DNA of 61,334 bases from Thermoplasmata archaeon (GTDB lineage Archaea > Thermoplasmatota > Thermoplasmata > Thermoplasmatales > Thermoplasmataceae), in NCBI GenBank assembly GCA_021802205.1, contig JAKAAT010000002.1, positions 1 to 61,334 of the forward strand. Reading direction: 5' to 3'. The notes below the pieces were generated by a model. That model was not told where the DNA came from. It worked only from the letters and a program-made list of their open reading frames with translations, and ran no database searches. The translations under genes and the position numbers were made by a program. Of the stretch, positions 12,015 to 59,319 are shown one piece after another. Each line of letters opens with the position of its first letter. Position 1 is the stretch's first letter.

Positions 12015-12107
12015 TGTGTTAATATTTATAGGCAGACAAATTATTATGTTTTATAGATAGAGCAATTAACAGATATAACAAATTCTGTTTGTAATAATGG
12101 TGATAAA

Positions 12108-15021: not shown

Positions 15022-15023
15022 TA

Positions 15024-15221
15024 ATGGATAGATCTAGTAAAATAGATTATAATTCGCTTAAAAAGCTGATAAAGGAAATTAATGATACGGTAGGAATTGA
15101 TGACAATTTAAAAGGCTTTTTGACAGAGGCAATTAAAAAAGAATATGAATTCCGTGAGAGTGAAAGGCCAAGAGTCGCAGCGTGGTATGAGGATCAAATC
15201 AAGGAGTTAAGTGATAATTGA
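15024..15221 (+). CDS. Small acidic-basic helical protein in the helicase/DndD-like operon
   Basis: 65 residues (MDRSSKIDYNSLKKLIKE...QIKELSDN), all helical by inspection. ATG 15024 is chosen because GGAG lies 11 nt upstream; ATG 15015 overlaps the helicase stop and would add three residues. It ends inside the start of the ATPase gene (TTGATG). Its position between helicase and ATPase suggests a linker or adaptor subunit. No family recognised. Confidence 0.7.
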   Translation: MDRSSKIDYNSLKKLIKEINDTVGIDDNLKGFLTEAIKKEYEFRESERPRVAAWYEDQIKELSDN

Positions 15222-41605: not shown

Positions 41606-42262
41606 TCACTTCAATGAGTTGATATATTGTTGTATATAATCTAGCATTCTGCTGTACGATGGTGGTAACCCTTGGTATACCAATGTCTTCAGGATATCTT
41701 CGTCAATAGGTTTCTGGTTGTTATCCAGAAAATTTATTAAACTTTCTCGGATCATCTCGGAATGATTAATATGTTTTATTAATATGTATATATCATACAA
41801 ATCTCTGATAAATCTTCTATTATTGTATGCCAATATCTTTTCTTTAATGAGGTCTTCAGGAGACAATGTTAATACATTCACTGTATTGCCTTCAATAAGT
41901 TCATAGTCCATTTCAACAGGATTTTCGGGATAATGCTTATGGTTAATTTCTATTTTTACATTTACATTGCCATCTAAGATATTGGAAAATAATATGTTTC
42001 CAGTATCCTTTAGTTTTAATAATGTAAGGGAACTGGATTGGATATTTGCTTTAAAATCATTTATATAATCAGAAAAACTGCCAGAATATAAATATATATC
42101 TTCAGAAAACCGGTATCCAGAATAACATCTCCATAGAGACGTACCACCATGAAGAACAAGGGAACTATCTATATTGTATAATAACAGGACTAACTCGTCC
42201 TGCAATTTTGCTACCTCTATCTGATTTCGATTTTTTAATTGTTTAACTATTGGAAGTTTCAT
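41606..42262 (-). CDS. AbiEii-like nucleotidyltransferase with altered active site
   Basis: 218 residues. LVLHGGTSLWRCYSGYRFSEDIYLYSG (about 35-61) is the NTase motif, but the second catalytic Asp of DxD is Tyr (SEDIY instead of SEDLD). Later motifs are normal (LSPEDLIKEKILAYNNRRFIRDLYDIYIL near 133-160). AbiEii toxins transfer nucleotides to tRNA or other targets; loss of the second Asp should reduce or abolish metal binding. The toxin may be dead or altered. First gene of the pair, driven by a promoter with an 11-bp-arm inverted repeat. Confidence 0.8.
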   Translation of the reverse strand: MKLPIVKQLKNRNQIEVAKLQDELVLLLYNIDSSLVLHGGTSLWRCYSGYRFSEDIYLYSGSFSDYINDFKANIQSSSLTLLKLKDTGNILFSNILDGNVNVKIEINHKHYPENPVEMDYELIEGNTVNVLTLSPEDLIKEKILAYNNRRFIRDLYDIYILIKHINHSEMIRESLINFLDNNQKPIDEDILKTLVYQGLPPSYSRMLDYIQQYINSLK

Positions 42263-42272
42263 AATGTAATAT

Positions 42273-42302
42273 ACAAGAGTTATGTAAATATATAACTCTT
42301 GT
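42273..42302. promoter_or_regulatory. Operator over the TATA box of the first AbiE pair
   Basis: ACAAGAGTTAT (42273-42283) and ATAACTCTTGT (42292-42302) are perfect 11-bp arms around 8 bp. On the minus strand the centre is about 26 nt before ATG 42262, so it covers the TATA region. AbiEi antitoxins autoregulate through such inverted repeats. Confidence 0.7.
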
Positions 42303-42414
42303 TATTTTAAATTTAACATGTTAAAGGATATTTTTTATATATTTTCTGTTATCAATAGTGGATGGCATATAGATTTCTGGAAATTAATATCTCCAAATGT
42401 AAATATATTTATTT

Positions 42415-43203
42415 TTAGATACTGTGGAAGGCACCATTTATAACTTTTAAAACTTCCTTACTGTCAGGAAGGGGACTAATTAAGAAAGAAAGTTCTGATT
42501 TCCATTTTGCTGAATTTAAGGCATTGCCTATATTATCCAAAAAATCTGTGCTGTTGAATTTGTTTCCCCTCATGTCAAATTTTCTATTTATTAATTTTAA
42601 GTCTGGTTGCAAATTATGGAATTTAATAAGAAAATATAAATCATATATATCACGCATCTTATCACGTTCAATGATTGAGGCTACCTTTTCAGAAATAATC
42701 TCTTTTAAATTCATTACAGGCACAGGAAACATTGGAATATCAGGATAGGGTGGTGTCAGATACTTTATATCTGGAGGTAATATGATGTCATTTCTCAAGC
42801 TTAAATCTATATCTATGTTTTCCATATAATTTAATTCATTATATAATGGGCCCTTTATTCTAAGCTCATAATTTATGCCAACAACAGTATCTCCTTCTTT
42901 ATGCCCTCTATGTTCTGTGTTTATTATATCATATTGCAAATTAACATTTTTAAGTGCCCTGTTCATTTTAACATAAATTGAGTTTAAAGATTTTTCTTCG
43001 GATAAATATGAAAAGTCAAGGTCTTCTGAAAACCTGTTTAAATTATAAAAATATTTTAAGGAAGTACCTCCCTTGAATATTAATTCATCATCGAATTCAT
43101 TGTAAATTTCATATAATAAAAGTGTCAGCAAATAATCCTTTTCAAGCTGCCTTATATCCAGAAATTTATATGAGTGCTGCATTAAAGTCTTTTCATCAAT
43201 CAT
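42415..43203 (-). CDS. AbiEii-like nucleotidyltransferase toxin (intact motif)
   Basis: 262 residues from ATG 43203 (GGAG lies 8 nt upstream; a GTG at 43212 overlaps the antitoxin end). FKGGTSLKYFYNLNRFSEDLDFSY (about 43-66) has the full GG-DxD nucleotidyltransferase site. MNLKEIISEKVASIIERDKMRDIYDLYFL gives the second conserved block. Compared with the degenerate neighbour at 41606-42262 this toxin should be active. Second gene after an AbiEi-like antitoxin, the standard order. Confidence 0.88.
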   Translation of the reverse strand: MIDEKTLMQHSYKFLDIRQLEKDYLLTLLLYEIYNEFDDELIFKGGTSLKYFYNLNRFSEDLDFSYLSEEKSLNSIYVKMNRALKNVNLQYDIINTEHRGHKEGDTVVGINYELRIKGPLYNELNYMENIDIDLSLRNDIILPPDIKYLTPPYPDIPMFPVPVMNLKEIISEKVASIIERDKMRDIYDLYFLIKFHNLQPDLKLINRKFDMRGNKFNSTDFLDNIGNALNSAKWKSELSFLISPLPDSKEVLKVINGAFHSI

Positions 43204-43807
43204 TTTGTCCACTCCTGTAATTTTTAATCAGTAATGTAACTTTATTTTTTAAAGCAGGTGAACCCATTCTTTCTGCGTATTCTATTAATTTTTTAACATC
43301 AATTAATTTAGATCTCATAGCCCTATTGAAAGATTCCTCCACATAAGAAAATTCGGGATTCTTATAATATATTGAATCTATAAACGCTTTTTCAGGAGTT
43401 GCAATGTATATATTGTCTATTCTTTTATATCCAAAAAATTTTTCTCTTTTTATAAAATTAAATTCTATTAAATTTTTTTCCAGTTCTATATTTCTGTGCC
43501 GCTTAATAGATATTACACTATATTTTTTTATAATCTGGTCAGTAATTGAATAATACTCAAATGCAGAAAAAAGGCTAATGTATGATGGATAAACTATGTT
43601 GGAAGCTATTTCATAAAGATCTATCCGGTTACCATTATTAATATAATATTTTCCTCTCTCTATTCTTTTAACGTATTTATTTGATGATAATAGTTTTGAG
43701 GCATATTTACTGGATTTGTTCATTATTTTTGCTGCATCTTTTATCGTGAATATTTTTTTATGGCCTGAAAGTTCATTTAAAATATCCTGTGTTCTATTAT
43801 ATTGCAT
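43196..43807 (-). CDS. AbiEi-like antitoxin of the second pair
   Basis: 203 residues from ATG 43807 (a TTG at 43813 would add two). N-terminal helix-turn-helix (TQDILNELSGHKKIFTIKDAAKIMNKSSKYASKLLSSNKYVKRIERGKYYI) and C-terminal IATPEKAFIDSIYY typical of AbiEi. The stop lies within the toxin start region, so they are coupled. Upstream is a very AT-rich promoter (43811-43840) with weak dyads only. Confidence 0.85.
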   Translation of the reverse strand: MQYNRTQDILNELSGHKKIFTIKDAAKIMNKSSKYASKLLSSNKYVKRIERGKYYINNGNRIDLYEIASNIVYPSYISLFSAFEYYSITDQIIKKYSVISIKRHRNIELEKNLIEFNFIKREKFFGYKRIDNIYIATPEKAFIDSIYYKNPEFSYVEESFNRAMRSKLIDVKKLIEYAERMGSPALKNKVTLLIKNYRSGQND

Positions 43808-44190
43808 ATACAATATATAATAATATCATATATATTAGTTGTGTTACTATATATCCACAAATATGGGGATATTGTTACATGTAATTTGAATAATATTAGA
43901 CACCATGAAATTGCGCACCAGCTGTAGAATGGACGCAGTATATTGTTCCGGCATCAAGGTTATAACCGAAAATTATGATGACAATGCTGCAAAAATTGTA
44001 TCACGATATATTCATATTGTCATATTCCATATTTTATTGCCTCCTTGTGTTCAGAAGATGAATTTCTCCCTGTTATTTATTCATCAGCTCATTATTAAGA
44101 GCGGGTTTATATTTACACATAATAGTGTACACAACCTCCTGTTTCATGTACTGTAATCTTCATATAATTCTATGAAAAACGTATAATTAA

Positions 44191-45169: not shown

Positions 45170-45925
45170 TTATTTATTACTAAAGAAAATTAATGCAAAT
45201 TCGCCATCTCTAGTTATAGTCAAATACTTGCTCTTATGGTTATTCCCCAAGTATTCCTCAGTGAGAAGCCCATTTTCAATCAATTTTCGTATCCATTTAG
45301 ATAATGTGCCCCGGGGAAGTTTATATCTGCCATTATTATTAATATTATTAGGTGGTTCATAATTCCGAGCTAATGCATCATACACATCACTCACTTTTAC
45401 GTATTTCTCTATATTTGTTGTAGAATCATGAACGATTCCCAGTATTTTTAAAAGGTTTCTATTATTTTGAAGTTCTTCTGGTGCAATACGTGGAATATTA
45501 AATTCAATTTTGCCTCCATTTATATCAATATAATAAGGAAAACCACCTATCCATATTGCTGTAGTAAAAAGATTTAAAGCGAGAACTTTTCTACCACCCG
45601 TCAAATTAAAATAAAAACTGGCATCAGGATATTCATCTCGTAATTTGAATACCTGCTCCATAACATCATTTATATCGTTTTCAAACACTTTGATCTGTAG
45701 AAATTCTATTCCAATCTGATTGGCTTGCACCTCCAGGTCTTTTAAAGCTTTGAGTATTTCATTTATACTTTCCGTATCTGGACTATTTTTCCTATTATTC
45801 GGTATTTCCACGAATACTATGATCCGGTCAATACTGTAATTCTTTACTGCAACTTTATACGTTTCACCTATGTTCTTCCCGGCAGAAAATATATGGAACT
45901 GCTTTTTTTTACTGTTATCATTCAT
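45170..45925 (-). CDS. CARF plus winged-helix regulator, Csa3-like
   Basis: 251 residues. Rossmann-like CARF domain at 1 to about 155: strands FHIFSAG and RIIVFVE, then the ligand-loop motif FNLTGGRK (106-113) followed by VLALNLFTTAIWIGG and YYIDI. C-terminal winged helix about 165-250 (KVSDVYDALARNYE, LPRGTLSKWIRKLIENGLLTEEYLG, KYLTITRDGEFAL). Csa3 regulators sense cyclic oligoadenylate and act on CRISPR genes; no CRISPR gene is near. It is divergent from the NYN/CARF/helicase operon and is probably its regulator. Alternative: a CARF effector-regulator for a different messenger. Confidence 0.85.
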   Translation of the reverse strand: MNDNSKKKQFHIFSAGKNIGETYKVAVKNYSIDRIIVFVEIPNNRKNSPDTESINEILKALKDLEVQANQIGIEFLQIKVFENDINDVMEQVFKLRDEYPDASFYFNLTGGRKVLALNLFTTAIWIGGFPYYIDINGGKIEFNIPRIAPEELQNNRNLLKILGIVHDSTTNIEKYVKVSDVYDALARNYEPPNNINNNGRYKLPRGTLSKWIRKLIENGLLTEEYLGNNHKSKYLTITRDGEFALIFFSNK

Positions 45926-45990
45926 TTTAAAATAGTATAATCATTTTTGGTATAAAATAATTTCCGTATCAAGAAATCATTTCCAATTAC

Positions 45991-46001
45991 ATTGATATAA
46001 T
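45991..46001 (+). promoter_or_regulatory. TATA box of the NYN/CARF/helicase operon
   Basis: ATTGATATAAT lies about 25 nt before ATG 46021, fitting a leaderless transcript. The 95-nt divergent region also holds GGTATAAAATAATTT (45946-45960), a TATA candidate for a second start. No strong dyad was found for the CARF regulator, although ATTTCC/GGAAAT-like half sites occur. Confidence 0.45.
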
Positions 46002-46020
46002 TTACATAGATGCATATATT

Positions 46021-46581
46021 ATGGATAAAGAGATTGAAAACTCAAAACTGATAAATATAGCCATTCCGAACGGAAATAGCATAAGTGGAAGCTATGCAAT
46101 AATAGATGGCATGAATATAGCATTATCGAGAAAAAGTAAAAACAAGGGGATATTGAATAATGTATTGAAAGTTTATAAAAAGATGCAGGAATCATACGAT
46201 CACGTAGAAATTATCGCCGATGCCAGTATAATACATAACATTGATGACAAGCAGACCCTATCGCAATCTGAGATAAAACAAAAAATCTTTATATGTCCTG
46301 CAGGTATAATAGCTGATGACCTAATCTGGGAGAGGGCGCTATCACTGTATTCCCTAGGTGCCGAAGTTACAATAGTAACAAATGATAAATTTCCAATTAC
46401 CAGATATTCAATAGAATATGAAAATATTAGAAATCTTACAGTTTCTATATTGTATGATGAAAGTATATATTTATTAGAAAGGGATATTTTATATCTTCAT
46501 AATAGGGATAATGGAAGAACAGAAAGGATTGGGATAGATTGTAAAATAGAGTATCGAGATTTAATGATGGTGAGTGAATAA
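46021..46581 (+). CDS. NYN/PIN-type ribonuclease domain protein (Zc3h12a-like)
   Basis: 186 residues. AIIDGMNIAL (26-35), ADAS (66-69), ADDLIWERA (98-106) and VTNDKF (119-124) match the acidic residues of NYN/Zc3h12a nucleases (D29, D67, D99/D100, D122). Such domains cleave RNA. Leaderless start at ATG 46021. First gene of an operon with a CARF protein, a helicase and a PLD nuclease, which suggests an RNA-cleaving effector. Substrate and trigger are inferred only. Confidence 0.82.
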   Translation: MDKEIENSKLINIAIPNGNSISGSYAIIDGMNIALSRKSKNKGILNNVLKVYKKMQESYDHVEIIADASIIHNIDDKQTLSQSEIKQKIFICPAGIIADDLIWERALSLYSLGAEVTIVTNDKFPITRYSIEYENIRNLTVSILYDESIYLLERDILYLHNRDNGRTERIGIDCKIEYRDLMMVSE

Positions 46582-46583
46582 TA

Positions 46584-47081
46584 ATGAACAGTGAAAGTCA
46601 GGATGAGATAAAGAATTCAAAAGGATCTGTGCACCTATTACTGGTAGGCCAGTCTAAAGGTCATATTAGCAAGGTATTAGAAATATTTGAACCAACACAT
46701 ATAGATCTGTTCACAACAACTGAATTATTCCTTCAAGTTTCAGAGTTTATAACTTCTATGAACTCGTATCATGGCACACATCATGTTTGTGTAATTCCCT
46801 CCTTTAGAGAAAACAGTATATACTCAGGCATTTCTATTATTTATTCACGTTATAAAAACCTAAAATCAAGATTTCCAGGAATGAGAATATATTTCGGTAT
46901 TACTGGCGGAACAAATACAATGGCTGTTGAAATGGCTTTAACTGCAGTCATGACAGAAGAGTCTATACATTATGTGGTAAAAGATTCCGACAATGACAAC
47001 GCAGGAGAAAATATAATTTTGTTCAATACTGAAGAATTAAACAAAATAATAAAAAATGGCACAATTGGTGGGGGGAGATAA
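46584..47081 (+). CDS. Stand-alone CARF-like protein
   Basis: 165 residues. VHLLLVGQSKGHI (16-28) at the first strand and IYFGITGGTNTMAVEMALTAV (102-122) at the ligand-loop give the CARF pattern; HYVV follows as the next strand. No helix-turn-helix and no nuclease fused. Starts 2 nt after the NYN gene stop (GGTGAGT 9 nt upstream). A second sensor in the operon, perhaps forming a heterodimer with, or holding, the NYN RNase. The call as CARF rests on motif reading and should be checked by structure prediction. Confidence 0.72.
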   Translation: MNSESQDEIKNSKGSVHLLLVGQSKGHISKVLEIFEPTHIDLFTTTELFLQVSEFITSMNSYHGTHHVCVIPSFRENSIYSGISIIYSRYKNLKSRFPGMRIYFGITGGTNTMAVEMALTAVMTEESIHYVVKDSDNDNAGENIILFNTEELNKIIKNGTIGGGR

Positions 47082-49781
47082 ATGGAACGTGGACAATTTA
47101 ATGATTACAACGATATATTATATTATTCAAATTTAGAATCAGAAGACGATAATAAAAATTCGCAATCATTTGGCCAAAATCCTCAGTTCACACTAGGGAA
47201 ATATCTGAGTGTTTTGAAAACTTATTCTAAAATTCTTAGTAATAAAGCTAACTCTTTAAAATTTGACTGGCAACTTGTTGCTATTCCTGATGATTATGGC
47301 GAAGCAAAGGATTTATTTGCAATAAAATTGAATCCATCAAAAGGAAATGAAAAGAATTATAATAATCAGGAAAGTAAGGAAATTTTACAGCAAATTTCAA
47401 AGCAGACCATCAGGGGGCTGAAATACTATGAGCAAGAAAAGAAAAAAAATCAGTATATTGAAATTGTTGATGTATACGATGAAGGAACAGAAGACGATAT
47501 CACACTCATAGTAAATAAGTTGCCTGATGGACCTATAGTTTTCCCAGATCTTAATGATTTATCGTTGAAGAGAGAAATCGAGGCAATCACAAAATTGGAA
47601 GATAGACCTGAAGAATATTTGCTTCCATTACTTAGACTTGCAGGACAGAATAGTGACAAAATCTGGTCTAAACCGGATTTAGTCGATGTAATGGAATGGA
47701 GAGTCCTAAATGATGCAACATTTCCGGGCATAAATGACCAACGTAAAATGGTGAGGCAGGCATTATCTACTAATGACTTCGCTATACTGGAAGGGCCGCC
47801 AGGTTCAGGGAAAACTACTGTCCTCTCTGAACTCATATTGCAGTTGCTTCTAGCAAAGAAAAGGGTGTTACTTGTGGGGTCTACTCATGTTGCAGTTGAT
47901 AATGTGCTTGAAAAGATAATCAAATATACTAATATAGTGGTTCCAATTAGAATAGCTCCACTAGACATGGAATTATCACCGGAAATTATGGATTTAACAT
48001 ATAATAAATATGTTAAAAGTTTCAAAAAAAAGGTTCTAATGGAATTATTAAAATTAAAAGATAAAAATGATATCCAGAAAGACTGGATAAATGAAATTCA
48101 AACAGATAAAAATGACATTTTTATATCTCAAATAATCAATGATAGTATAAATCTGGTCAGTGGCACTACTTTCGGTGTTCTTCAATTCCCTGAGATCAAA
48201 AATTGCATAAAAAATAAAACTTTCAAACCACTTTTCGATGTGATGATTATAGATGAGGCCAGCAAAACAAATTTTACAGAGTTCTTGGTTCCAGCAATGT
48301 TTGCCAAAAAATGGATTATTTCCGGAGACCCAAAGCAACTTTCGCCGTACACTGACCGGGATCTAATTGTGAGCGAGATAAATTCACTACTGGAAGATGA
48401 ATATAAAAATGCCCCGATTCCTTACTCAGATCTTGAAAAAGTTTCTTTATTAGCATTTTGGGCAAATAATGTACTTAGCTCGGGAAGAAAAGACGCTCCA
48501 CAAAGAGCACTTTTAGTACTTGATGACCATGACTGGAAATTGCAGAAAGCCATATCAGAACAGATCAACAACTCGAAGGTAGAAACAATAATTCATGTTA
48601 TACCAGAGACTGTTAAAAGTGAAGAAACTGAAAAAATCATGATAAATGGGTCTGATGTTATCATAGCCAATTCCAAATTTATACAAAAATATGCTGATGC
48701 ATTGCCCTACGGTACTATAATACACGGGAACATGATTTCCAGCAAAAAAATGGAATTCAGAAATCAGTTCTATTTTAAAGCTTTAAAATTAAATCATTCC
48801 AGCAATGTTGCGGTCAAAGATAGTAAACTATCTGACGAAATTGCTTGGAGATTGATCAGATATTATGAAATGAGAATGTCCGTTAAAAAAGCCTTACAGT
48901 ATAAAGAAGAAATACGGGATTTAATTCCAAAAGCTGGAACAATGCCTATTGACAAGGGGAATAAGAAAATCGTTGATTATATATGGGATAAACTAGACAA
49001 AATAAAATATACAATTTTTCCATCAATATTAGAGACCTTGATATCAGGAAATTCAAACATTAATTCAAACTATAGGGGTTCGATTCTTGAATCTGGATTT
49101 TCAAAAGAATATAAAAACTCTATATGGACTCTTTTAAGCTACCAGTATAGGATGCATATTGGAATATCTTACTATCCACGAAAGTTGGTATATACATCTG
49201 AGGATGGGATCTCAGTGGCTCTGAAAGACACAGATAAAATTGATAGAGAATGGAATTTCAAAAGGTATCAAAAAAGAATAGTGTGGTTAGATGTTGAACG
49301 TAAAAATTCATATAGTAAAAAAATTAAGAGGCAGAATGTTAATGATGCGGAGGCAGAGAAAATAATAGAAGAATTAAAAAAATTTGTTGAATTTGCTGCT
49401 GAAGATACATCTGAAAAACACGAATGGAGTGTTGCTATCATGTCATTCTATGCGAATCAAACAATATTACTGAAGAACAAAATACGGAAGCAGTTTGAGG
49501 GAAAAGGTTCGGTTTATTATAACAAAGATAAATCTGTAAAAATCTTTGTAGGGAATGTTGATGCAATGCAAGGTAGAGAAGCAGATATAGTGTACCTATC
49601 CATGGTAAGAACAGGGGGTCTTGGTTTTCTTGATAACATGAACCGGATTAACGTAGCTATAACACGGGCAAGATATCAACTGGTTATAGTGGGCAATCAT
49701 AGGGTTTTTTCTACTTCCAAAAAAGAAGACGCACTTGTGCATAGGCTTGCCATAGAACTTACACCAAACTATGAGTTATAA
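47082..49781 (+). CDS. Superfamily 1 helicase, UPF1/DNA2-like
   Basis: 899 residues. An N-terminal unknown region (1-200), Walker A GPPGSGKTT (about 235-243), STHVAVDNV (motif Ia), Walker B MIIDEAS (about 388-394), SGDPKQL (III), a 230-residue insertion, then YRMH (IV-like) near 688, MQGREADIVYLSMVRT (V, about 828) and NVAITRARYQLVIVGN (VI, about 856). These SF1B helicases unwind RNA or DNA 5'-3'. Starts directly after the previous stop, GGGGAGAT ahead. Probably the motor of the system, feeding nucleic acid to the NYN or PLD nuclease. Confidence 0.93.
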   Translation: MERGQFNDYNDILYYSNLESEDDNKNSQSFGQNPQFTLGKYLSVLKTYSKILSNKANSLKFDWQLVAIPDDYGEAKDLFAIKLNPSKGNEKNYNNQESKEILQQISKQTIRGLKYYEQEKKKNQYIEIVDVYDEGTEDDITLIVNKLPDGPIVFPDLNDLSLKREIEAITKLEDRPEEYLLPLLRLAGQNSDKIWSKPDLVDVMEWRVLNDATFPGINDQRKMVRQALSTNDFAILEGPPGSGKTTVLSELILQLLLAKKRVLLVGSTHVAVDNVLEKIIKYTNIVVPIRIAPLDMELSPEIMDLTYNKYVKSFKKKVLMELLKLKDKNDIQKDWINEIQTDKNDIFISQIINDSINLVSGTTFGVLQFPEIKNCIKNKTFKPLFDVMIIDEASKTNFTEFLVPAMFAKKWIISGDPKQLSPYTDRDLIVSEINSLLEDEYKNAPIPYSDLEKVSLLAFWANNVLSSGRKDAPQRALLVLDDHDWKLQKAISEQINNSKVETIIHVIPETVKSEETEKIMINGSDVIIANSKFIQKYADALPYGTIIHGNMISSKKMEFRNQFYFKALKLNHSSNVAVKDSKLSDEIAWRLIRYYEMRMSVKKALQYKEEIRDLIPKAGTMPIDKGNKKIVDYIWDKLDKIKYTIFPSILETLISGNSNINSNYRGSILESGFSKEYKNSIWTLLSYQYRMHIGISYYPRKLVYTSEDGISVALKDTDKIDREWNFKRYQKRIVWLDVERKNSYSKKIKRQNVNDAEAEKIIEELKKFVEFAAEDTSEKHEWSVAIMSFYANQTILLKNKIRKQFEGKGSVYYNKDKSVKIFVGNVDAMQGREADIVYLSMVRTGGLGFLDNMNRINVAITRARYQLVIVGNHRVFSTSKKEDALVHRLAIELTPNYEL

Positions 49782-49797
49782 AAATAGAGGGAAATAT

Positions 49798-50877
49798 ATG
49801 ATAAGTAATGAAGTAATAATGGAGAGAAATATTGAAAATGAAAGCTTTGACTGCATTGGAACAATAAGGGTGAATACAGAAAATAAATATATAATTACCA
49901 TTCTACGTATAGCAGAAAAATTTGGACAGTTGACACCTGAGAATTTAAGAAATAACCTGTTACCCAATCAGCCTATTACGATGGCAGAAAATATCATTAA
50001 AAATTATCAGGCACTTGGTTTTATAGGAGATACTGGAAATCTTACGTCCCTCGGTGAGATGGCAATTAAAGGAGATGTTTATATGCCGGAACAGGGAGAA
50101 TATACAATATGTGCAACCAGCGATAGCCTTGTTAATAATGCGATTATTAAAATTTACAGGATTAAACGGAATGAAAATAAGGAAAAAACCATACAAAAAC
50201 CGGAAATATTAAAAGGAGTTGAGTGGCGTCCTATACTGGTCCTATTAGGTGGACAAAAGGAAAAGGTAATTGTAGAATCTATAGATAATAAAGTTCAAAA
50301 AAGTAAGTCCAAGGAAAATTTTAGCATTGAAGTCAGAAGTAATTATACTAGAAGTAATGTAATCCTTAAAGAAGGTGGGAAGTCTCAATTCGAGTTTCAG
50401 AACAATAGACTTAAAATTGATGATGTATGGAGCGCAGTTACAAAAAATAACGGACTTAAGTGGACGGGTGATGCACTTCAATATGGATTTGCATTATTAC
50501 CTTATGGAAAAACAAATGCAAATGAACGAAGCTCATTTTCTATGAACCTTCCCGAAATGACATTAAACTTAAATGAATTCGGAAATTTAAAGGCTAAGCC
50601 TATTACAGTGAAGATTCAACCATCATCGCAAAAAGATGCTGATATATGGGCCCAAGATGTCATTTTAGATAGAATAGTTGATTTTATAAGTGAGGATAAA
50701 TTTATGCATATATCAGAAGAAGTAAAGAAAAAATTTGAAACATACACACCTAGAATTCCTGAAAGAGATGAAATGGTAAAAGCACTTTATAGTAAGTCAG
50801 TTGATAGTGGTAAAGCATTACCTAAGGGATACTGGTATTTGCAGGCTCCTGTTGACCTTAGCATGGAGGAGGAGTAA
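49798..50877 (+). CDS. Unknown protein with winged-helix-like N-terminus in the CARF operon
   Basis: 359 residues from ATG 49798 (GAGGG lies 7 nt upstream); ATG 49771 overlaps the helicase end. About residues 22-90 look like a winged helix (YIITILRIAEKFGQLTPENLR...IKNYQALGFIGDTGNLTSLGEMAIKG). The middle and C-terminus are beta-rich with no motif I know (GLKWTGDALQYGFALLPYGKTN). It lies between the helicase and the PLD nuclease in one unit, so a nucleic-acid-binding or docking role is likely. Not recognised. Confidence 0.75.
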   Translation: MISNEVIMERNIENESFDCIGTIRVNTENKYIITILRIAEKFGQLTPENLRNNLLPNQPITMAENIIKNYQALGFIGDTGNLTSLGEMAIKGDVYMPEQGEYTICATSDSLVNNAIIKIYRIKRNENKEKTIQKPEILKGVEWRPILVLLGGQKEKVIVESIDNKVQKSKSKENFSIEVRSNYTRSNVILKEGGKSQFEFQNNRLKIDDVWSAVTKNNGLKWTGDALQYGFALLPYGKTNANERSSFSMNLPEMTLNLNEFGNLKAKPITVKIQPSSQKDADIWAQDVILDRIVDFISEDKFMHISEEVKKKFETYTPRIPERDEMVKALYSKSVDSGKALPKGYWYLQAPVDLSMEEE

Positions 50878-52374
50878 ATGCCAGGCGACAAAGTAGAAAA
50901 AGGAATTGTTTTAAATAAAATTATAGATAATAGCAATAAGGTTGTAGGACCAGTTTTAATACAGCAGGGTCATCCAAATTTAGAAAAAATAAGTTCAGAA
51001 GAGCATGGTATCTTCCAACCTGGAGCCAATAATCTTATTGATAAAATAATTAAAGTAATTTCTCACACTAAGCAATTTCTATGTGTTAGCAGTTTTCTTA
51101 TCCAGGACTCCAGCATTATCGATGAAATAAGAAAATGTTACGAGAGGGGCGTTAGAGTATACATTTTGACCGCAGCGGAAACACAATTATCCAATCCTAA
51201 TGAAGAGGATGACAGTCCTTTAGAAAAAAGGAAGTCAAACTTTCGAGATATGTTAAACAACCTAAGTTCACATGCACTAATTCATACAGGAGATGATCTG
51301 CATGCCAAATTCATTATATCAGACCCGAAAACGAACCCGAAAGCAATTGTTTTTACATCCAATTTAACACTCAGGGCGCTCACTGAAAATATTGAGCTTG
51401 CTATAGAATTATCAGGAAAATTTGAGGTAGAGGAACTATTCAAACAATTTTTATATGGATTCTGGAAAGCAGCTAAACGAGAAGTAAACTCAAGTAATAA
51501 GGAATTATCTGCGGTTAACCAGCATCCTGAATTTGTAGACCTTGCATATACACCTCAAAGAATAAAATGGACTTTAGGTAATCAATTATTAATAAAGGAT
51601 CTGCTGGGTAAAATGATTGAATCTGCGGAGTCCTATATATCGATCTCGACATGGACTATAGATATGGAGCACCCTATCGCTATGCAACTAATCAAAAAAG
51701 CCTCAGAGGGGGTTAAAGTTATTTTATTCACTAGGCCACACAGTGCAAATAAAGAGTTTACCATCACATTAATCAAGAACGGTGGCACTGTATATTGCCA
51801 TAAACTATTGCATGCAAAATCTCTGATAGTGGACGGTAAACAGGGCTTAATTATGACTGCCAATATATCTAAATTAGGACTTGATGAAGGATTTGAAACT
51901 GCTGTCATATTATGCCACGACCAGATAAATGTTTTAAATAAAATACACAATGAATGGAAACATGGGTGCCAATATAGGAGTGAGAAGACAATAATACTTG
52001 GAGATATAAAAGTTCCATGGATTAACATAACAGAAAATTTTGAGGAATTACCAAAACCCGGAGTAAAAGATATAGATTTAGGCCAAGTTACAGCCAAAAA
52101 GTTAAGAGATTATTTTGACGAAAAGATAGAAGATTATTTACCTGACAATAATCAGAAAAATGTAAATGATAAACAAATCAATTATACTATTAACCTTCTA
52201 CCACCGAGACTTCCTACTCACCTAGCAAACCCAAAAATCGAAGAAAAAAACGATTTAGAAATTTATACCACCAACAATGGAAAATATATATGTGTTAAAA
52301 ACAGAGAGCACATGTCAAACGCGGAGGACTTATCCAAAAAGATTAATGCAAAAATTGTTCTATGTGATAAGTAA
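50878..52374 (+). CDS. Phospholipase-D family nuclease with two HKD motifs
   Basis: 498 residues. First HKD: LHAKFIISD (about 141-149) followed by FTSNLT; second: LHAKSLIVD (about 310-318) followed by IMTANISKLGLDEGFE. The two-domain PLD fold with the second half RPHSANKEFTITLIKNGG fits a nuclease or phosphohydrolase rather than a lipase signal-bearing enzyme (no signal peptide). DISARM uses a PLD protein (DrmC), but the other DISARM genes are absent. ATG starts immediately after the preceding stop, GGAGGAG ahead. Likely the DNA-cutting effector. Confidence 0.88.
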   Translation: MPGDKVEKGIVLNKIIDNSNKVVGPVLIQQGHPNLEKISSEEHGIFQPGANNLIDKIIKVISHTKQFLCVSSFLIQDSSIIDEIRKCYERGVRVYILTAAETQLSNPNEEDDSPLEKRKSNFRDMLNNLSSHALIHTGDDLHAKFIISDPKTNPKAIVFTSNLTLRALTENIELAIELSGKFEVEELFKQFLYGFWKAAKREVNSSNKELSAVNQHPEFVDLAYTPQRIKWTLGNQLLIKDLLGKMIESAESYISISTWTIDMEHPIAMQLIKKASEGVKVILFTRPHSANKEFTITLIKNGGTVYCHKLLHAKSLIVDGKQGLIMTANISKLGLDEGFETAVILCHDQINVLNKIHNEWKHGCQYRSEKTIILGDIKVPWINITENFEELPKPGVKDIDLGQVTAKKLRDYFDEKIEDYLPDNNQKNVNDKQINYTINLLPPRLPTHLANPKIEEKNDLEIYTTNNGKYICVKNREHMSNAEDLSKKINAKIVLCDK

Positions 52375-52484
52375 TATTAAATAAATTCTTGGCAGCATGC
52401 CTGTATATTATTACATGCAAGTAATCATAGAATTTTTATCCTTTAAACATCCATGTCACTCAGCATTTAAGTCTTATTGTCAGG

Positions 52485-52497
52485 AAAATTTATATAA
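52485..52497 (+). promoter_or_regulatory. TATA box setting the start at 52517
   Basis: AATTTATATAAGC lies about 25 nt before ATG 52517, which is the expected leaderless spacing. It argues that translation begins there and not at ATG 52397, which has no such signal. Confidence 0.55.
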
Positions 52498-52516
52498 GCA
52501 AGGTGTATTAAAATGT

Positions 52517-53221
52517 ATGAATATTCCATTATCTATTAATTCAGATTTTGAAAGAGTATTAATAAAATTTAGAGATATTACTGAAGGAAATATTGTAACT
52601 TTTGAAGATAAAGAAATTGCTGAATTCCTTATGCAGGCAAAAGGACGCTTCAGTACCTGGAAATCGTTTCTTAATTCAAACTATTTAAAAAGTATAAAAA
52701 AGTCTCCCCAGTTACCGGATTATTTTTGTGATATGGTAAAAAGATGTCTACCGGAAAATGGGAATGGTAGCTGGAATGGCATGGAAAGGCAAGAGAGTAA
52801 TTTGTGCTCTCAATATATTAAATTGATAGATGCATTCATAGATATTTTAGATTTCAATCATTTTATTTTTCCGGACTATGATAATGTTAAAGAATTATTA
52901 CACGAATATGTAGATCACACTTCTACCAAACACATATCAGGAATGGGCACATTACTTGCAACATCTATTCTTTTTGTTTTTGATGAAAATCATTTTATGG
53001 TGCTGGATGAACCTGTTAAAACATACTTTAATGTTAATGATGACAAAGATGGAATCGATAATTATGATAAAATTATAAGTTATTCGCAGCAGCTTGCTGC
53101 TAAATATAAATTAAGTATGTGGATGATGAATAAAGCATATGCTGTTTACGCTCATGGAAACTCAATAAAAGTAGGAGATTTCAATCAGCCTCGTATTCCA
53201 AGCAAATACATAAAAATATAG
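52517..53221 (+). CDS. Helical protein with an HhH-like core, downstream of the PLD gene
   Basis: 234 residues. Residues about 142-170 (KHISGMGTLLATSILFVFDENHFMVLDEPVKTY) resemble the helix-hairpin-helix region of HhH-GPD proteins, where an Asp follows a GxG hairpin, but the key lysine is absent. The first half is charged and helical. A separate TATA box means it may be expressed apart from the operon, though the two may be read through (143 nt after the PLD stop). OGG-like HhH proteins are known in some CBASS operons; a link is not shown. Weak assignment. Confidence 0.6.
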   Translation: MNIPLSINSDFERVLIKFRDITEGNIVTFEDKEIAEFLMQAKGRFSTWKSFLNSNYLKSIKKSPQLPDYFCDMVKRCLPENGNGSWNGMERQESNLCSQYIKLIDAFIDILDFNHFIFPDYDNVKELLHEYVDHTSTKHISGMGTLLATSILFVFDENHFMVLDEPVKTYFNVNDDKDGIDNYDKIISYSQQLAAKYKLSMWMMNKAYAVYAHGNSIKVGDFNQPRIPSKYIKI

Positions 53222-53387
53222 AAATAAGTGCATGTAACAGTCAAATTATTTCATTCAATGGCAATAAAACTGTTATAATCTTTATATCCCTTAAATATTG
53301 AATTTAAAATTATAACTAACGACTATTGTATTTATTCCTTGTTACCTTATAATGTAAATTTCTATTATACTCTTCTTCAAGCCAGTG

Positions 53388-53627
53388 TTACCTTAATTTG
53401 CCTTTATGCGTTAAACAGAAATTTCCCTTTTTATTCCCATTTTTTATTAAGCCTTCATTAATTAAAATAGAAATTATTTTAAGAACATCTATGTTATATT
53501 TTTTTATTTCGTGTCTCTTATTAAGTTGATTCACACTAAAACAGCCCCCAGGGGATTTCTGAATTCTTGATGTATTCCTCATAAGGATATCTTTTTGTTG
53601 CTGTACATTATCCGTATCAGTGGGCAT
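53388..53627 (-). CDS. Small winged-helix-like protein
   Basis: 79 residues with a winged-helix look (IKKYNIDVLKIISILINEGLIKNGNKKGNFCLTHKGK), convergent with the 52517 gene and divergent from the winged-helix gene at 53718. Start ATG 53627 follows an AT-rich stretch. May be a regulator of the neighbouring pair or a relic; unsure. Confidence 0.4.
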   Translation of the reverse strand: MPTDTDNVQQQKDILMRNTSRIQKSPGGCFSVNQLNKRHEIKKYNIDVLKIISILINEGLIKNGNKKGNFCLTHKGKLR

Positions 53628-53717
53628 TTATTATCATATTCCCAATGAATTTAAAACTATTTGTTACCTGGTGTGATTATCCAGTATACTTTTTATACTA
53701 GCATGTAATAATATTTT

Positions 53718-54155
53718 ATGGGTGCATTCAGTGAAATATTTGGTAAAGTTCCCAGAGTATTAATTCTGGAAATGTTTTCGGAAGAACCGGATGATGAATT
53801 AACAGTTAAGGATATAATTGAACAAACAGGAATTTCAAAAAGAGGTGCATATTTAATTATAAGAAAATTCCTAAATGAAGGATTGTTAGTTGAATCCGGG
53901 ATTCGCCCAAAAAAATACATGTTGAATTACAACGACTTAAGGGCCAGAACATTGATCAATGCTGAGCCATTACTTATAATGGGAAAATTAGAATATGAAT
54001 TAAAGGTTGATAAAAACATACCTGTAAATATGCCTTATCAGGATACTTATACCTATATCAATTCAGAAGATATTATGATAGAGAATAAAAAATCTGGGGA
54101 AAACACTCTGGATCTAGAGGAAAATATCGATAATCCCTTACCAGTAGGTGCATAA
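53718..54155 (+). CDS. Winged-helix DNA-binding protein
   Basis: 145 residues. KVPRVLILEMFSEEPDDELTVKDIIEQTGISKRGAYLIIRKFLNEGLLVESGIRPKKYMLNYND (about 9-72) is a clear winged helix; an acidic tail follows. First gene of a two-gene unit with a 214-residue unknown that starts 2 nt after it. In toxin-antitoxin-like or phage-control units such regulators commonly precede the toxin or effector. TATA-like box (ATACTTTTTATAC) about 25 nt upstream of ATG. Confidence 0.75.
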   Translation: MGAFSEIFGKVPRVLILEMFSEEPDDELTVKDIIEQTGISKRGAYLIIRKFLNEGLLVESGIRPKKYMLNYNDLRARTLINAEPLLIMGKLEYELKVDKNIPVNMPYQDTYTYINSEDIMIENKKSGENTLDLEENIDNPLPVGA

Positions 54156-54157
54156 TA

Positions 54158-54802
54158 TTGAAAAATATAATTTTTGAATCATATAGAATTGCAGTAAGAT
54201 CAAAAAGTCTCTTCAGAAATATTGATATAAATTATTTGATGAATAAATTCAAGACAAATGGTTATGCGTTTAGAATTCCACCCCCGGTAATAAATCCTGT
54301 TGCCGATGAAACCAGTGTTGGATTTAAAGGACCATTATTACAGAAAGGGGAAATAATAATAGATGTTAACAGTGATATAAATTCAATCGGAATACAATGT
54401 AATTCCATGGATAGTTTAATCAAAGAATTAGAAACTGTGTTCCTGCCAAACATTAAGGCAATGAATTTGTTTTATAAAAATATCTGGTTCTATGAGTTGC
54501 AGTTAAAAATAAAGAAACAAAATAATGAACAAAGCTTATTTAAAACATTTTATAGTTCTGACGAAAATAAGGAATTTGAAATTATTAAAAATATTGACAC
54601 TAACATGACTATGAGTGGATTAACATTATGGGATTCCGGAAATCCTAATATGGAAGATTTCACTGAAATGAGATTGTTTATTGATCCTCTAGACACAGAA
54701 CTTTTAGTTTATAAGATTATATTACGAAATAAGGAAGAATTAACATTTATGAAAAAAATTAAAAGTATTAATCAAAATATCAAATTTGAGAATACTACAT
54801 GA
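54158..54802 (+). CDS. Unknown protein paired with the winged-helix gene
   Basis: 214 residues from TTG 54158, 2 nt after the previous stop (coupled). Beta-rich start (FRIPPPVINPVADETSVGFKGPLLQKGEIIIDVNSDINSIGIQCNSMDSLIKELETVF), C-terminal half mixed. No motif recognised; no membrane segments. Likely the effector or partner of the regulator upstream. Confidence 0.6.
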   Translation: MKNIIFESYRIAVRSKSLFRNIDINYLMNKFKTNGYAFRIPPPVINPVADETSVGFKGPLLQKGEIIIDVNSDINSIGIQCNSMDSLIKELETVFLPNIKAMNLFYKNIWFYELQLKIKKQNNEQSLFKTFYSSDENKEFEIIKNIDTNMTMSGLTLWDSGNPNMEDFTEMRLFIDPLDTELLVYKIILRNKEELTFMKKIKSINQNIKFENTT

Positions 54803-55299
54803 TTTGAGTTCCAGTTAAAAATATGTAATATTATCGATTTGAATCAATTGAAAATTATTGAAATTATCTCAAAATATAAAATGCCTGTATAAGGCTATTA
54901 AAATCAAGCATTATTTATTCCGCGTTTCGCCGAAATACCATTTGATAATGTAACTATATTAATGTAAATTTACAATTCCTTCTTTTAATATGATAATACT
55001 ATCCCAATTTAATTAAAAAAACTAATTTTATAAAATTTATTGACCTTTGAATATCGGCACTTAATAGTAGTTAAACAATGTATTGGAATGTTTGATTGTT
55101 TCGGGCAACGCCAACAGATATATTTATAGATCTACTAAGTTTCTAAAAATGAAACATATCAGATTATATCAAATTAAGGGAGAGTTTGTTCCATGGAAGA
55201 TTGAATGTCTAAAGTTACTTCGCACCATTACGAAAAGAATGGATAATGAAGCCTACTAATGTGTACATTTATTGGTATTCTTATCTTGGTCTTTAATAT
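54803..55299. other. AT-rich gap with one short ORF
   Basis: 497 nt. At 55149-55259 a 36-residue ORF (MKHIRLYQIKGEFVPWKIEC...NEAY) has a TATA-like ATATATTTATAG about 26 nt upstream, so it may be a leaderless micro-gene, but a chance ORF is equally possible. The remainder shows only homopolymeric AT runs. Confidence 0.3.
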
Positions 55300-55920
55300 T
55301 TAACAATTTGATAACGTGCATTTGTATCGACGAGTTAAACTTAAAATGAACGTTCCATTACAATATACCGATCTAAATATTTCAATATTTTTTTGGAGTT
55401 CCTTTTTACTCATTTTATGTATTGGAATTGAATTTATTGTTTTATCATTTTTCTTTTGAATTCCCCATTTTAGACCAAATTTAAATTCATATTTGCAAGC
55501 AGAAAAATCTTGATTTACTGAAGTAATTTCGGCAAAAATAGTATAAAAGATAATGCGTCCCGGTTCATCACAATCGTATTTTGGTTGGTCTACAAAATAG
55601 GACTTATCTAATGAAGACGAATAGAATGGTATGCCGGAATTTGCTATCATTATATCGTTATGGCAGTTTGGAAGGGTCTTACCATCAGGAATGCCATCTA
55701 TCCTAAGGGATGGGTCTCTTTTATCTACTTCTTCACTATAAGTTTGAAGGATTGCCCATTCATAATTTCCCTTAGGATACTCTTTTAGCTCTAATTTTGA
55801 CGGACATGCTTTAATCTTCTCACACGGGATTATTGTTGAACTTTCCCGGCCCATAGAATAAACAAATTTAACCAATCCCGCATTATCAATATGACAGATT
55901 ATATCTTTATCTTTTACCAC
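55300..55920 (-). CDS. Unknown protein, 206 residues, upstream of HNH nuclease
   Basis: Cys-containing (CHIDNAG, ACPSKLEL, NCHNDIM, YKCTLSNC), alpha/beta pattern, no membrane segment, no motif I recognise. It is downstream of the HNH endonuclease gene on the same strand with a 90-nt gap, so it may be part of its unit. Function unknown. Confidence 0.55.
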   Translation of the reverse strand: MVKDKDIICHIDNAGLVKFVYSMGRESSTIIPCEKIKACPSKLELKEYPKGNYEWAILQTYSEEVDKRDPSLRIDGIPDGKTLPNCHNDIMIANSGIPFYSSSLDKSYFVDQPKYDCDEPGRIIFYTIFAEITSVNQDFSACKYEFKFGLKWGIQKKNDKTINSIPIHKMSKKELQKNIEIFRSVYCNGTFILSLTRRYKCTLSNC

Positions 55921-56010: not shown

Positions 56011-56928
56011 TTATGACAAGAATACATTTTCATAATGCCATTTAAGATAAACATCAGATTCACTTTTCCTGGGCAAATTTAGATCTCCGCATTCAACAAG
56101 TTTTTTATATTGCTCCTTGAGATATTTACTGTTACTTCTATCCATTTTTTTACTAACCATAACTCTATTATTGGAAATCGTCATTAAACCTTCATCAAAA
56201 AGCCTATGGTGAATTGAACAAAGACAGAGGCCATTGGCAAATTTTCCTGCCGAAGTTAAATCCTCTTTAACAGGTTTGATATGAGCTGCTTGAAGTAAAA
56301 TGTCAGAATCAACACCACAAATAACACAATGGTGATCAAATATGTTAAGAGTGTTTCTTCTAAATTCAGATTGGAATTGCCTACCCATTACAATCCTTTC
56401 TTTTGTTAAAGGGTCCACACCATCAACTTTTATTTCTGTATCATCTTTGCTCAAGCTGTAAATGATTTTATTTCCTCGATGGTCTTTAATAATACTTGTG
56501 ACCTTACCTTGATATTGGTCTAAGAGCCTATCATACATATCTTTGAAGAGATTCCATTTCGGGGTTTGCGTATGTCCAAATTTTTCTAATCCCTTGATAT
56601 TATTTATAATGTCAAGTGATATTCCTGGTTCGAATATTTTTATATCTCCCGGTCTAAATTTATTCCTAAAGGGATAATCATCGTTTTCCTGTACTGTATC
56701 ATACACCTTAAGCTCAATAGTTATCCCGTCTCTATTTGGGTCATATAGCATTAAGGTTCCTTTTCCTTCCCCATTCAAATAGTCATGTGGCGTGCCCCAA
56801 TCTTCCCGTTCAACATTTTTGAACACTTCGATATAATTCTCACTATCAATCCCAGATTTATCACCAAACTGAATGTAGGCTATCTTACCAATTGGAATAT
56901 CAAATTCCCGCCTTCTCGAGTTACTCAT
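56011..56928 (-). CDS. HNH endonuclease (McrA-like)
   Basis: 305 residues. The HNH core lies near 193-245: CVICG, AHIKPV, NGLCLCSIHHRLFDEG, with zinc ligands from the two Cys pairs and catalytic His in AAHIKP. N-terminal 190 residues (IPIGKIAYIQFGDKSGID...) are a separate domain of unknown kind, a possible modified-base or structure reader. HNH proteins of this design restrict foreign or modified DNA. Upstream region is AT-rich. Confidence 0.85.
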   Translation of the reverse strand: MSNSRRREFDIPIGKIAYIQFGDKSGIDSENYIEVFKNVEREDWGTPHDYLNGEGKGTLMLYDPNRDGITIELKVYDTVQENDDYPFRNKFRPGDIKIFEPGISLDIINNIKGLEKFGHTQTPKWNLFKDMYDRLLDQYQGKVTSIIKDHRGNKIIYSLSKDDTEIKVDGVDPLTKERIVMGRQFQSEFRRNTLNIFDHHCVICGVDSDILLQAAHIKPVKEDLTSAGKFANGLCLCSIHHRLFDEGLMTISNNRVMVSKKMDRSNSKYLKEQYKKLVECGDLNLPRKSESDVYLKWHYENVFLS

Positions 56929-58798: not shown

Positions 58799-59317
58799 CT
58801 AATCTTCATAATCAGTTGAACCGGTGTGTATATCTTTTCTTGCTTTTATATAAGCTAATCTAGGAGTCCATAAAACTGTATATTTACTATCCAACCTTGA
58901 AATCGTTTTTCTAAATTTTGTTAGTCTTTGTTTAATTTCTTCAGTAGTCAATATATTCATATCAATATTTATGAAATAATCCACTCTTTTATAGAGTTTC
59001 AAATAATCACTTCCTGCATAATAGTTCTGATAGGAGTGTTCTCCTGGCCCTAAAATGGTAACAGATCCAATTAATATAGCTGACGCTAATGCACTAAAAC
59101 CGGAAATTCCGAAACTAATATTATGGCTAAAATATATTGAAGTACCAGCTATTGCACTAAGACTTGTTGCTAAAATACCTGTAATATAATGAATATTTTT
59201 AAACAAGGCAGCAGTATTAAAATGCCTCCTCGCTGAATAATTGCTATCGGTTTTTATTTTCTTTGCTTCTACAAACATGCCATTTCGTAAATCCTTATCA
59301 TTATTTATGTCTTCCAT
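58799..59317 (-). CDS. SLATT-domain membrane protein, CBASS effector
   Basis: 172 residues with two transmembrane helices (about 48-65 and 70-90; ITGILATSLSAIAGTSIY and ISGFSALASAILIGSVTIL) followed by the SLATT helix region (GEHSYQNYYAGSDYLKLYKRVDYF). SLATT proteins are pore-forming effectors gated by nucleotide signals in CBASS and related systems. Start ATG 59317 is 2 nt after the CD-NTase stop, so co-transcribed. Confidence 0.8.
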   Translation of the reverse strand: MEDINNDKDLRNGMFVEAKKIKTDSNYSARRHFNTAALFKNIHYITGILATSLSAIAGTSIYFSHNISFGISGFSALASAILIGSVTILGPGEHSYQNYYAGSDYLKLYKRVDYFINIDMNILTTEEIKQRLTKFRKTISRLDSKYTVLWTPRLAYIKARKDIHTGSTDYED

Positions 59318-59319
59318 AT

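Follow-up and report, generated by a model that had tools for sequence, protein, structure and literature searches.

A candidate CARF-regulated antiviral operon with a UPF1-like helicase, a winged-helix protein and a PLD nuclease in Thermoplasmata

The system described here occupies positions 45170–52374 of a 61,334-nucleotide stretch of DNA (the window, contig JAKAAT010000002.1 of assembly GCA_021802205.1) from a Thermoplasmata archaeon of the family Thermoplasmataceae. It consists of six genes: a regulator with a CARF domain and a winged helix-turn-helix (CARF-wHTH) on the reverse strand and, divergent from it on the forward strand, genes for an NYN-domain RNase, a free CARF protein, a UPF1-like helicase, an elongated winged-helix protein (the wHTH protein) and a PLD-family nuclease with two HKD motifs. 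All six genes, as called from the sequence, lie where an earlier note on this DNA had placed them. The family names used throughout are annotations, and the features are as follows.

45170–45925, reverse strand: CARF-winged-helix regulator, Csa3-like (PADLOC Csa3 model, 3.6e-44; orthologues in five genomes)
45926–46020, no strand: divergent promoter region of 95 bp (same architecture, 89–95 bp, at five of five loci)
45961–45976, no strand: dyad TTTCY-N7-GAAA, candidate operator putatively bound by CARF-wHTH (present in five of five intergenic regions)
46021–46581, forward strand: putative NYN-domain RNase, Zc3h12a/PRORP-like (Pfam matches of orthologues and four invariant Asp; taken by itself, the window protein matches weakly)
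46584–47081, forward strand: stand-alone CARF protein (PADLOC CARF model, 7.9e-10; AlphaFold 2 model; PDB matches Can2, Cam1 and Csm6)
47082–49781, forward strand: UPF1-like SF1 helicase, CnuH/MkoA-like (Pfam AAA_12, 1.4e-38, and AAA_11, 3.3e-26; motifs invariant)
49771–50877 (start possibly 49798), forward strand: elongated winged-helix protein, like the N-terminal half of CnuE (AlphaFold 2 pLDDT 84.0; wHTH at residues 37–102)
50878–52374, forward strand: double-HKD PLD-family nuclease, DrmC/MkoB-like (Pfam PLDc_2, 1.1e-23; both HKD motifs invariant)

Genes inside the operon overlap or are separated by 0–2 nt; the gap 5' of the wHTH-protein gene would be 16 nt if that gene starts at 49798, a start hinted at by its orthologue at locus L007 (genome G006). 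The gene at 52397–53221, taken in the earlier note for a trailing HhH-like member, was rejected: it matches nothing in Pfam, NCBIfam or PADLOC, no counterpart was seen after the PLD gene in the open reading frame (ORF) lists of the four other loci described below, and its product shows no similarity to the McrB found at the same place in G006. With neither a family match nor a counterpart elsewhere, the system ends at 52374. These family scans covered ten proteins near the operon (45170–55920) and, in the window at large, the ORFs from 39 kb onward. A simple scan detected no CRISPR-like repeats in the window, Rfam gave no match there, and neither Cas10 nor Cas1 was matched anywhere in the window's genome (G000; 84.6% complete, 105 contigs). 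The earlier observation that the window holds no cas10, other cas gene or CRISPR array is thus borne out as far as this repeat scan and these two genes reach.

The wHTH protein was used as a marker of the system among 200 genomes of relatives (the genome sets consist in part of metagenome-assembled genomes) and was found in five of them, including the window's own, which represent three genera. All five carriers possess the same six genes in the same order and on the same strands, their proteins being 26–72% identical to those of the window; recurrence in four other genomes rules out chance juxtaposition, and the tight operon, which encodes a motor protein, two types of nuclease and a pair of CARF proteins, is therefore a conserved unit. 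The ratio of nonsynonymous to synonymous substitution rates (dN/dS) between the window and L007 is 0.14–0.27 across the six genes, all of which are under purifying selection. Strong homologues of the free CARF protein (E <1e-70), the NYN protein (E <1e-76) and the PLD protein (E <1e-200) occurred among the 200 genomes only in the five carriers, with weaker matches in 4 further genomes for the free CARF protein, 19 for NYN and 27 for PLD. Strong CARF-wHTH homologues occurred in the five carriers and in G094 and G017. In G094 the gene is still divergent to a helicase gene, on a 3.4-kb contig, and in G017 a shortened CARF-wHTH gene adjoins an NYN remnant, with no helicase-profile match in the 17 kb examined. 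Since the strong homologues are confined in this way, independent occurrence of the genes in relatives, which the earlier note had named as the outcome that would count against a system, was not seen. In a wider set of 400 genomes of the class the wHTH protein was present in seven; the two extra carriers, G214 and G337, keep the helicase, the wHTH protein and PLD, the helicase of G337 being cut by a contig end. A scan of genome contigs with the wHTH protein alone returned nothing. At L007, a McrB/McrC pair (12545–15464) follows the operon.

Two of the six proteins are putative sensors. The CARF-wHTH regulator, besides its PADLOC match to Csa3, matches NCBIfam TIGR01884 at 4.6e-8, below the family cut-off, and contains the motif T-[GS]-G-[RK]-K, in which G111 and K113 are invariant across the orthologues in five genomes; searching the PDB with its profile yielded nothing usable. 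For the free CARF protein the same kind of search found only Csm6, at 0.02. Its AlphaFold model has a mean pLDDT of 77.5 (two of the five models were good and three were near 41), and in a second structural search all 50 rows were CARF-type chains, as judged from their titles, with Can2 (7bdv) as the best match (Z 14.3, rmsd 2.5 over 129 residues). The plain Foldseek list included two non-CARF rows, both KsgA, at ranks 46 and 49. The two marks of the CARF superfamily, fold and sequence motifs, are thus present, the fold being predicted for the free CARF protein, and the concern that the CARF assignments might fail in structure prediction was not borne out for that protein. An analysis from 2014 links a positively charged residue after strand 4 to nucleotide ligands and, in its accessible text, describes RtcR proteins as mostly without it (PMC4012209). 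The CARF-wHTH regulator retains this residue, and the free CARF protein has GGTN, a pattern that may be a clue to the type of ligand and is a lead, not a test.

The remaining proteins are the predicted effectors and motor. A Zc3h12a-like NYN domain was matched in all five NYN orthologues scanned (best 1.9e-6) and PRORP in four of the five; four aspartates (D29, D67, D99 and D122) are invariant in all five, in agreement with the acidic active site expected of NYN/PIN nucleases. The helicase belongs to the UPF1/SMUBP-2 family (PDB profile matches to SMUBP-2 at 5.8e-34 and UPF1 at 1e-30), and its best PADLOC match is MkoA of the Mokosh system, at 1.7e-85. The wHTH protein folds with confidence, and its winged helix scored Z 8.2, a value that the search tool flags as borderline, with winged-helix regulators in the first 17 rows of the structural search, so that the initial wHTH-like reading of this protein holds for that segment. 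It gave no Foldseek match at E 0.001 or better and nothing usable in the PDB profile search; a new fold is not claimed for it, because only residues 11–273 were spanned by enough rows. In the PLD protein both motifs (H142-K144-D149 and H312-K314-D319) are invariant in all five orthologues. The copy in G036 is shorter at its C-terminal end, with stops beyond, and keeps both motifs. DrmC of DISARM is a better PADLOC match for this protein (8.1e-28) than MkoB (1.2e-10).

The dyad between the divergent genes lies at a like position in each of the five intergenic regions. Among 4000 shuffled sets, none shared any 4-nt dyad with a 5–10-nt gap across the five regions. The pattern itself is not rare: it matched three times in 61 kb (two of the matches being the same site on both strands) against 2.95 expected. 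The motif was noticed before it was tested, which makes the search for any 4-nt dyad the fairer measure, and the five regions share ancestry; for both reasons these numbers overstate its significance. The relatedness of the loci also means that the dyad shows conservation rather than binding, and it is regarded as a candidate operator of the CARF-wHTH regulator.

Scanning 84,980 species, each represented by a single genome, with the helicase alignment revealed 124 relatives, and the 80 best loci were retained. Of these 80, 76 have the wHTH protein behind the helicase and 66 have PLD as well, so the neighbourhood search proposed at the outset returned a recurrent helicase-wHTH-PLD core, commonly with a CARF protein in the locus. 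Where a triad had 1.5 kb or more of sequence on each side, a CARF match was found in eight of eight archaeal and 34 of 42 bacterial loci. The eight archaeal loci comprise four known carriers (G024, G066, G036 and G214) and four new ones (L034, L043, L059 and L077). Forty-one of the 80 loci, all of them bacterial, have an RtcR-like frame behind PLD and on its strand, starting between −390 and +101 nt from the PLD end; since 39 genes of this type went into the profile, most of the 41 match by construction. The two RtcR-like proteins examined matched PADLOC RtcR_PspF1 (4.7e-150 and 1.7e-205) and PF00158, with the architecture CARF, sigma54 AAA and HTH. The gene orders of the archaeal loci (a slash marks the divergent point) are as follows.

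Thermoplasmata: CARF-wHTH / NYN, CARF, helicase, wHTH, PLD
L100, Methanomicrobiales: CARF-wHTH / viperin-cluster radical SAM, CARF, helicase, wHTH, PLD
L086, Methanomassiliicoccales: as L100 up to the contig end
L077, Prometheoarchaeum: CARF-wHTH / CARF, helicase, wHTH, PLD
L043, Heimdallarchaeota: 365-aa gene, CARF_m1, CARF-wHTH / viperin-cluster gene, helicase, wHTH, PLD
L021 (G214): CARF-wHTH / viperin, helicase, wHTH, PLD; CARF_m1 and PIN genes beyond PLD
L034, Lokiarchaeota: CARF-wHTH (weak match, 1e-3), CARF_m1 (clear), PIN-like, then the core, all on one strand
L059, Thaumarchaeota: CARF-wHTH, core; PADLOC CARF, 1.1e-50
L099, Heimdallarchaeota: viperin-cluster gene, core; no CARF match in the 1.2 kb available upstream

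These orders imply that NYN occupies the place held by viperin in L086 and L100, and that some loci have nothing there. The viperin of L021, directly 5' of the helicase, matches NF038283 at 4.7e-85. NCBIfam names viperin for L021 only; the others have a Radical_SAM match and group with it by BLAST, in a cluster to which one gene of the bacterial locus L048, distant from the helicase there, belongs too. The PIN assignments in L021 and L034 come from PADLOC CARF_PIN, and the 365-aa gene of L043, with no PADLOC match, is PIN-like by place only. In L021, NYN-type genes (3719–4234, 15009–15572 and, recognized by eye, 18035–18667) and an RNase III-like gene lie around the core, and in L077 a second diverged PLD (1e-7) and a UPF1-like helicase (3e-21) adjoin it (7423–12594, reverse strand).

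The five Thermoplasmata helicases formed one supported clade (96) in a quick tree of 81 sequences, made with a simple model and showing long branches, from which the duplicates L029, L030, L031 and L107 and six loci without a helicase call of at least 600 aa were dropped. Five CARF-less bacterial triads (L045, L048, L058, L061 and L091) fall in a separate clade of 16 rows, the AAA/radical-SAM clade, which serves as an internal control with a CARF or RtcR match in one of its 16 rows. This clade is marked by a second conserved operon (L045, L048, L052, L058, L061, L091 and others) encoding an AAA ATPase, a longer UPF1-like helicase, a wHTH protein, a PLD-like protein, a small protein and an NrdG-like radical-SAM activase; the HKD motif is absent from six PLD-like proteins of the clade (L048, L052, L058, L061, L094 and L106). 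The helicase was found at three viral-contig loci, and the one examined, L019, belongs to the same clade on a long branch. Phage records gave no match, and the 45 pattern matches to the free CARF protein in viral contigs included no relative.

The bacterial version appears to be mobile. Eight near-identical helicases come from seven genera, with end branches of up to 0.02, and the same clusters of conjugation genes flank the core in L055, L068, L071 and L098, with none in L047 of the same group. The flank of L055 contains, by Pfam, TraL, TraE, TraK, a TrbI-type protein and TraC, and an AbiE pair adjoins its core. L062 is Marinomonas fungiae JCM 18476. In its SXT/R391 integrative and conjugative element (ICE), ICEMfuInd1a, the published genes of hotspot traA-s054 include four of 2730, 1110, 1533 and 1446 bp, named 'heavy metal transporter CzcA', hypothetical protein, cardiolipin synthase and AAA regulator (PMC5122569). 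The helicase, wHTH, PLD and RtcR-like proteins of L062 have 909, 369, 511 and 481 aa, which agree with these gene lengths bar one codon; matched by length and place, the 2730-bp 'CzcA' gene is probably the UPF1-like helicase of the system. A 2009 comparison states that restriction systems, endonucleases and helicases, which may exclude phage, are encoded by a disproportionate number of the variable genes of such elements (PMC2791158). Plasmid records gave four matches for the helicase and four for PLD, and none for the wHTH-PLD-like protein of L019. On the Klebsiella plasmid CP052287 (L110, 6863–9843) PLD and a sigma54 regulator are annotated next to an IS21 transposase, with no helicase or wHTH gene; this is apparently an incomplete copy, and the gene table is itself incomplete.

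The window operon lies in an island with further defence-related genes. Two AbiEii genes and an AbiEi gene lie upstream (41606–43813, reverse strand). An HNH protein (56011–56928, reverse strand) is kin to restriction proteins of phosphorothioate DNA (NF045808, 1.9e-19, below cut-off). A CBASS locus (58799–60306, reverse strand) consists of a CD-NTase (59320–60306; NF041117, 4.9e-50, below cut-off; SMODS, 1.3e-18) and a SLATT_4 protein (58799–59317; 8.6e-22); a 315-aa gene upstream of the CD-NTase (60307–61254) has no Pfam or NCBIfam match.

The context gives good support to the antiviral defence role that we infer: viperin takes the same place in the operon of L021, the bacterial version is ICE cargo and the distribution is patchy. 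When Asgard viperins were expressed in E. coli, nine of 48 protected against T7 and one more did so after codon optimization, according to the accessible part of that report (PMC11291487). A different origin for this set of genes would be a housekeeping operon for RNA damage and decay, which would clear damaged host RNA and be induced, in an Rtc-like manner, when its CARF domains sense broken RNA ends. The RtcR-like activator of the bacterial version and the kinship of the helicase with UPF1 fit such a role, and RtcR answers to damaged RNA in the available text of two studies (PMC7790460, PMC9650030). Nevertheless, a housekeeping function is unlikely, given occurrence in five of 200 relatives, mobility (near-identical helicases in seven genera and cargo of an ICE hotspot), the antiviral enzyme viperin in the same operon in L021 and the decayed copy in G017.

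If the operon is a defence system, its CARF proteins might simply answer cyclic oligoadenylate made by Cas10, as an accessory module of type III CRISPR. CARF domains of this type bind cA4 or cA6 in the solved structures that they match, the CARF-wHTH regulator scores as Csa3, and Cas1 was found in five of eight carriers. Against this, the Cas10 palm (PF22335) was matched in none of the seven archaeal carriers, among them G006, a single contig rated 99% complete, and the six Cas10-positive genomes among 121 relatives are all non-carriers. PF22335 matched five of 14 control genomes, including E. coli, so that the model also catches Cas10 relatives. Moreover, none of the operon's own genes was recognized as a cas gene, the other ORFs of the relatives' loci being mostly unscanned. 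A type III accessory role is therefore disfavoured, and we consider it very improbable; with no recognizable Cas10 in the carriers tested, the signal is probably not Cas10-made cyclic oligoadenylate. No other source emerged from the archaeal carriers. mCpol was matched in none of eight (its control matched weakly, in one genome only), and SMODS exceeded the cut-off in two of seven, through the window's separate CBASS and a distant protein in G006. A 458-aa protein matching SMODS, which we take to be the CCA-adding enzyme, is present in G006, far from the operon, and in G000. None of the three cyclase families searched (Cas10, mCpol and SMODS) was thus common to the carriers.

These observations suggest that the operon is probably a stand-alone, CARF-regulated antiviral system, and the following mechanism, predicted from gene content, forms part of that proposal. 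Infection would raise a nucleotide or RNA-end signal, probably not made by Cas10. The CARF-wHTH regulator would bind it, act at the TTTC-GAAA dyad and turn on the divergent promoter, as the RtcR-like CARF activators would do for the bacterial version. With the wHTH protein acting as its adaptor, the helicase may then load on foreign single-stranded nucleic acid and bring PLD to it; RNA is favoured over DNA as the target because of the kinship with UPF1 and the presence of NYN. The free CARF protein, whose gene abuts that of the helicase, might gate the complex or remove the ligand, and NYN would be the RNase arm in the place held elsewhere by viperin or, at one locus, by CARF_m1 and a PIN protein.

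Several points weigh against this proposal. The case for defence is one of guilt by association, and RtcR relatives control RNA repair. No ligand and no shared oligonucleotide synthase was found, which leaves 'nucleotide-triggered', the term of the earlier note, without a source, and we infer such triggering rather than observe it. Cas1 in some carriers indicates that CRISPR is present and that crosstalk is possible, and the CBASS cyclase of the window lies 7 kb from the operon. The Zc3h12a-like RNase reading stands for the orthologues and the invariant aspartates and falters for the window protein alone, which matched Zc3h12a-like NYN at 0.038 and PRORP at 0.0026, below the Pfam cut-offs; its profile search of the PDB found no NYN chain. 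The wHTH protein gave no usable structural match outside residues 37–102. A free CARF protein of the window's kind was not seen in L021, L043, L034 or L059 and is thus not universal, and eight of the 42 well-flanked bacterial triads have no CARF match, three of them (L041, L101 and L103) falling outside the AAA/radical-SAM clade.

A broader proposal, to which we give somewhat less than even weight, is a Cas10-independent CARF immunity that spans both domains of life, in which one core would be controlled by CARF-sigma54 proteins in bacteria or CARF-wHTH proteins in archaea, joined at some archaeal loci by a free CARF protein, respond to RNA ends or to other signals not made by Cas10 and carry an exchangeable slot in which NYN or PIN RNases take the place of viperin. 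CARF domains have mostly been studied as receivers of Cas10-made cyclic oligoadenylates. Here, one helicase-nuclease machine is coupled to CARF sensors in both domains, the absence of Cas10 holding for the archaeal carriers tested, and the question of what else CARF domains sense becomes directly testable. The system also supplies archaeal viperins with a set of genetic partners, and its bacterial version, probably mis-annotated in a well-studied SXT/R391 ICE hotspot, can be cloned from there into E. coli.

Contrary to the initial impression that the operon matches no named system, its helicase is closest to MkoA, its PLD protein is closest to DrmC and, in the available text on CoCoNuTs, the layout of helicase, elongated wHTH and effector is described for CnuH relatives (PMC11090510). 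This raises the possibility that the operon is a diverged member of Mokosh type I or of CoCoNuT, not a system in its own right. Both the order of a UPF1-like helicase followed by an elongated wHTH with a nuclease, as in CnuH and CnuE of types II and III and their relatives (the wHTH being that of CnuE by layout only), and the association of RtcR-like CARF regulators with some CoCoNuTs are points of likeness, as is the McrBC pair after PLD in G006. The CnuE of type III-C is itself a distorted wHTH with two PLD domains (PMC11090510). However, the McrC family (PF10117) is present in one of eight carriers (G006) and absent from G000, the wHTH and PLD are separate genes here, dedicated CARF proteins and an NYN RNase are present, and the system is archaeal, whereas CoCoNuTs are called 'nearly absent in archaea' (PMC11090510).

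Mokosh type I likewise has a UPF1-like helicase and a PLD nuclease. In the comparison, made with PADLOC models, the helicase matches MkoA, the PLD protein matches MkoB less well than DrmC, and the wHTH protein has no MkoB match. Its MkoA helicase carries an N-terminal kinase domain. Here the best-matching segment against MkoA starts at profile position 524 of 1112, which is residue 119 of the protein and leaves no room for such a domain, and no protein-kinase family was among the 25 of 31 Pfam matches listed. The operon has an extra wHTH gene and CARF regulation, and none of ten wHTH-type proteins scanned matched a Mokosh model. The operon is set apart from CoCoNuT by the lack of McrC in seven of eight carriers and from Mokosh by the lack of room for the MkoA kinase, and the likelihood that it is a divergent form of either appears slight. 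DISARM has a PLD nuclease of the same broad family, DrmC, but the PLD protein scored 64.5 bits against an NCBIfam DrmC cut-off of 133, about half, and no DrmA/DrmB-type (DUF1998) domain was among the Pfam matches listed for the ten proteins at 45170–55920. CBASS differs in that the operon contains no CD-NTase, the CBASS of the window being separate.

Among regulators and effectors, RtcR_PspF1 (PADLOC PDLC01994) is a CARF transcription regulator tied to the same helicase-wHTH-PLD core in bacteria, whereas the CARF-wHTH of the archaeal loci is Csa3-like and lacks the sigma54 AAA domain, with a free CARF protein in addition at some of them. The CRISPR-associated NYN of Bacteroides fragilis is likewise an NYN RNase in a defence locus, and its three active-site aspartates appear to correspond to invariant ones here; it belongs, in the accessible text, to a type III-B locus with a SAM-AMP signal, unlike the carriers described here, in which no Cas10 was found (PMC11346440). 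Prokaryotic viperins hold the same place, between CARF-wHTH and helicase, in other archaea, whereas in the window NYN fills that position and the operon lacks viperin. No published operon combining CARF, NYN or viperin and helicase-wHTH-PLD was found in a search whose coverage did not extend to the 2020 CARF classification (NAR 48:8828), and the available text of PMC12839542 and PMC12458937 contains nothing on such an operon. The system is thus, with its novelty provisional, best described as a variant of the kind that unites a UPF1-like helicase, a wHTH protein and a nuclease, distinguished by its CARF control and its exchangeable arm.

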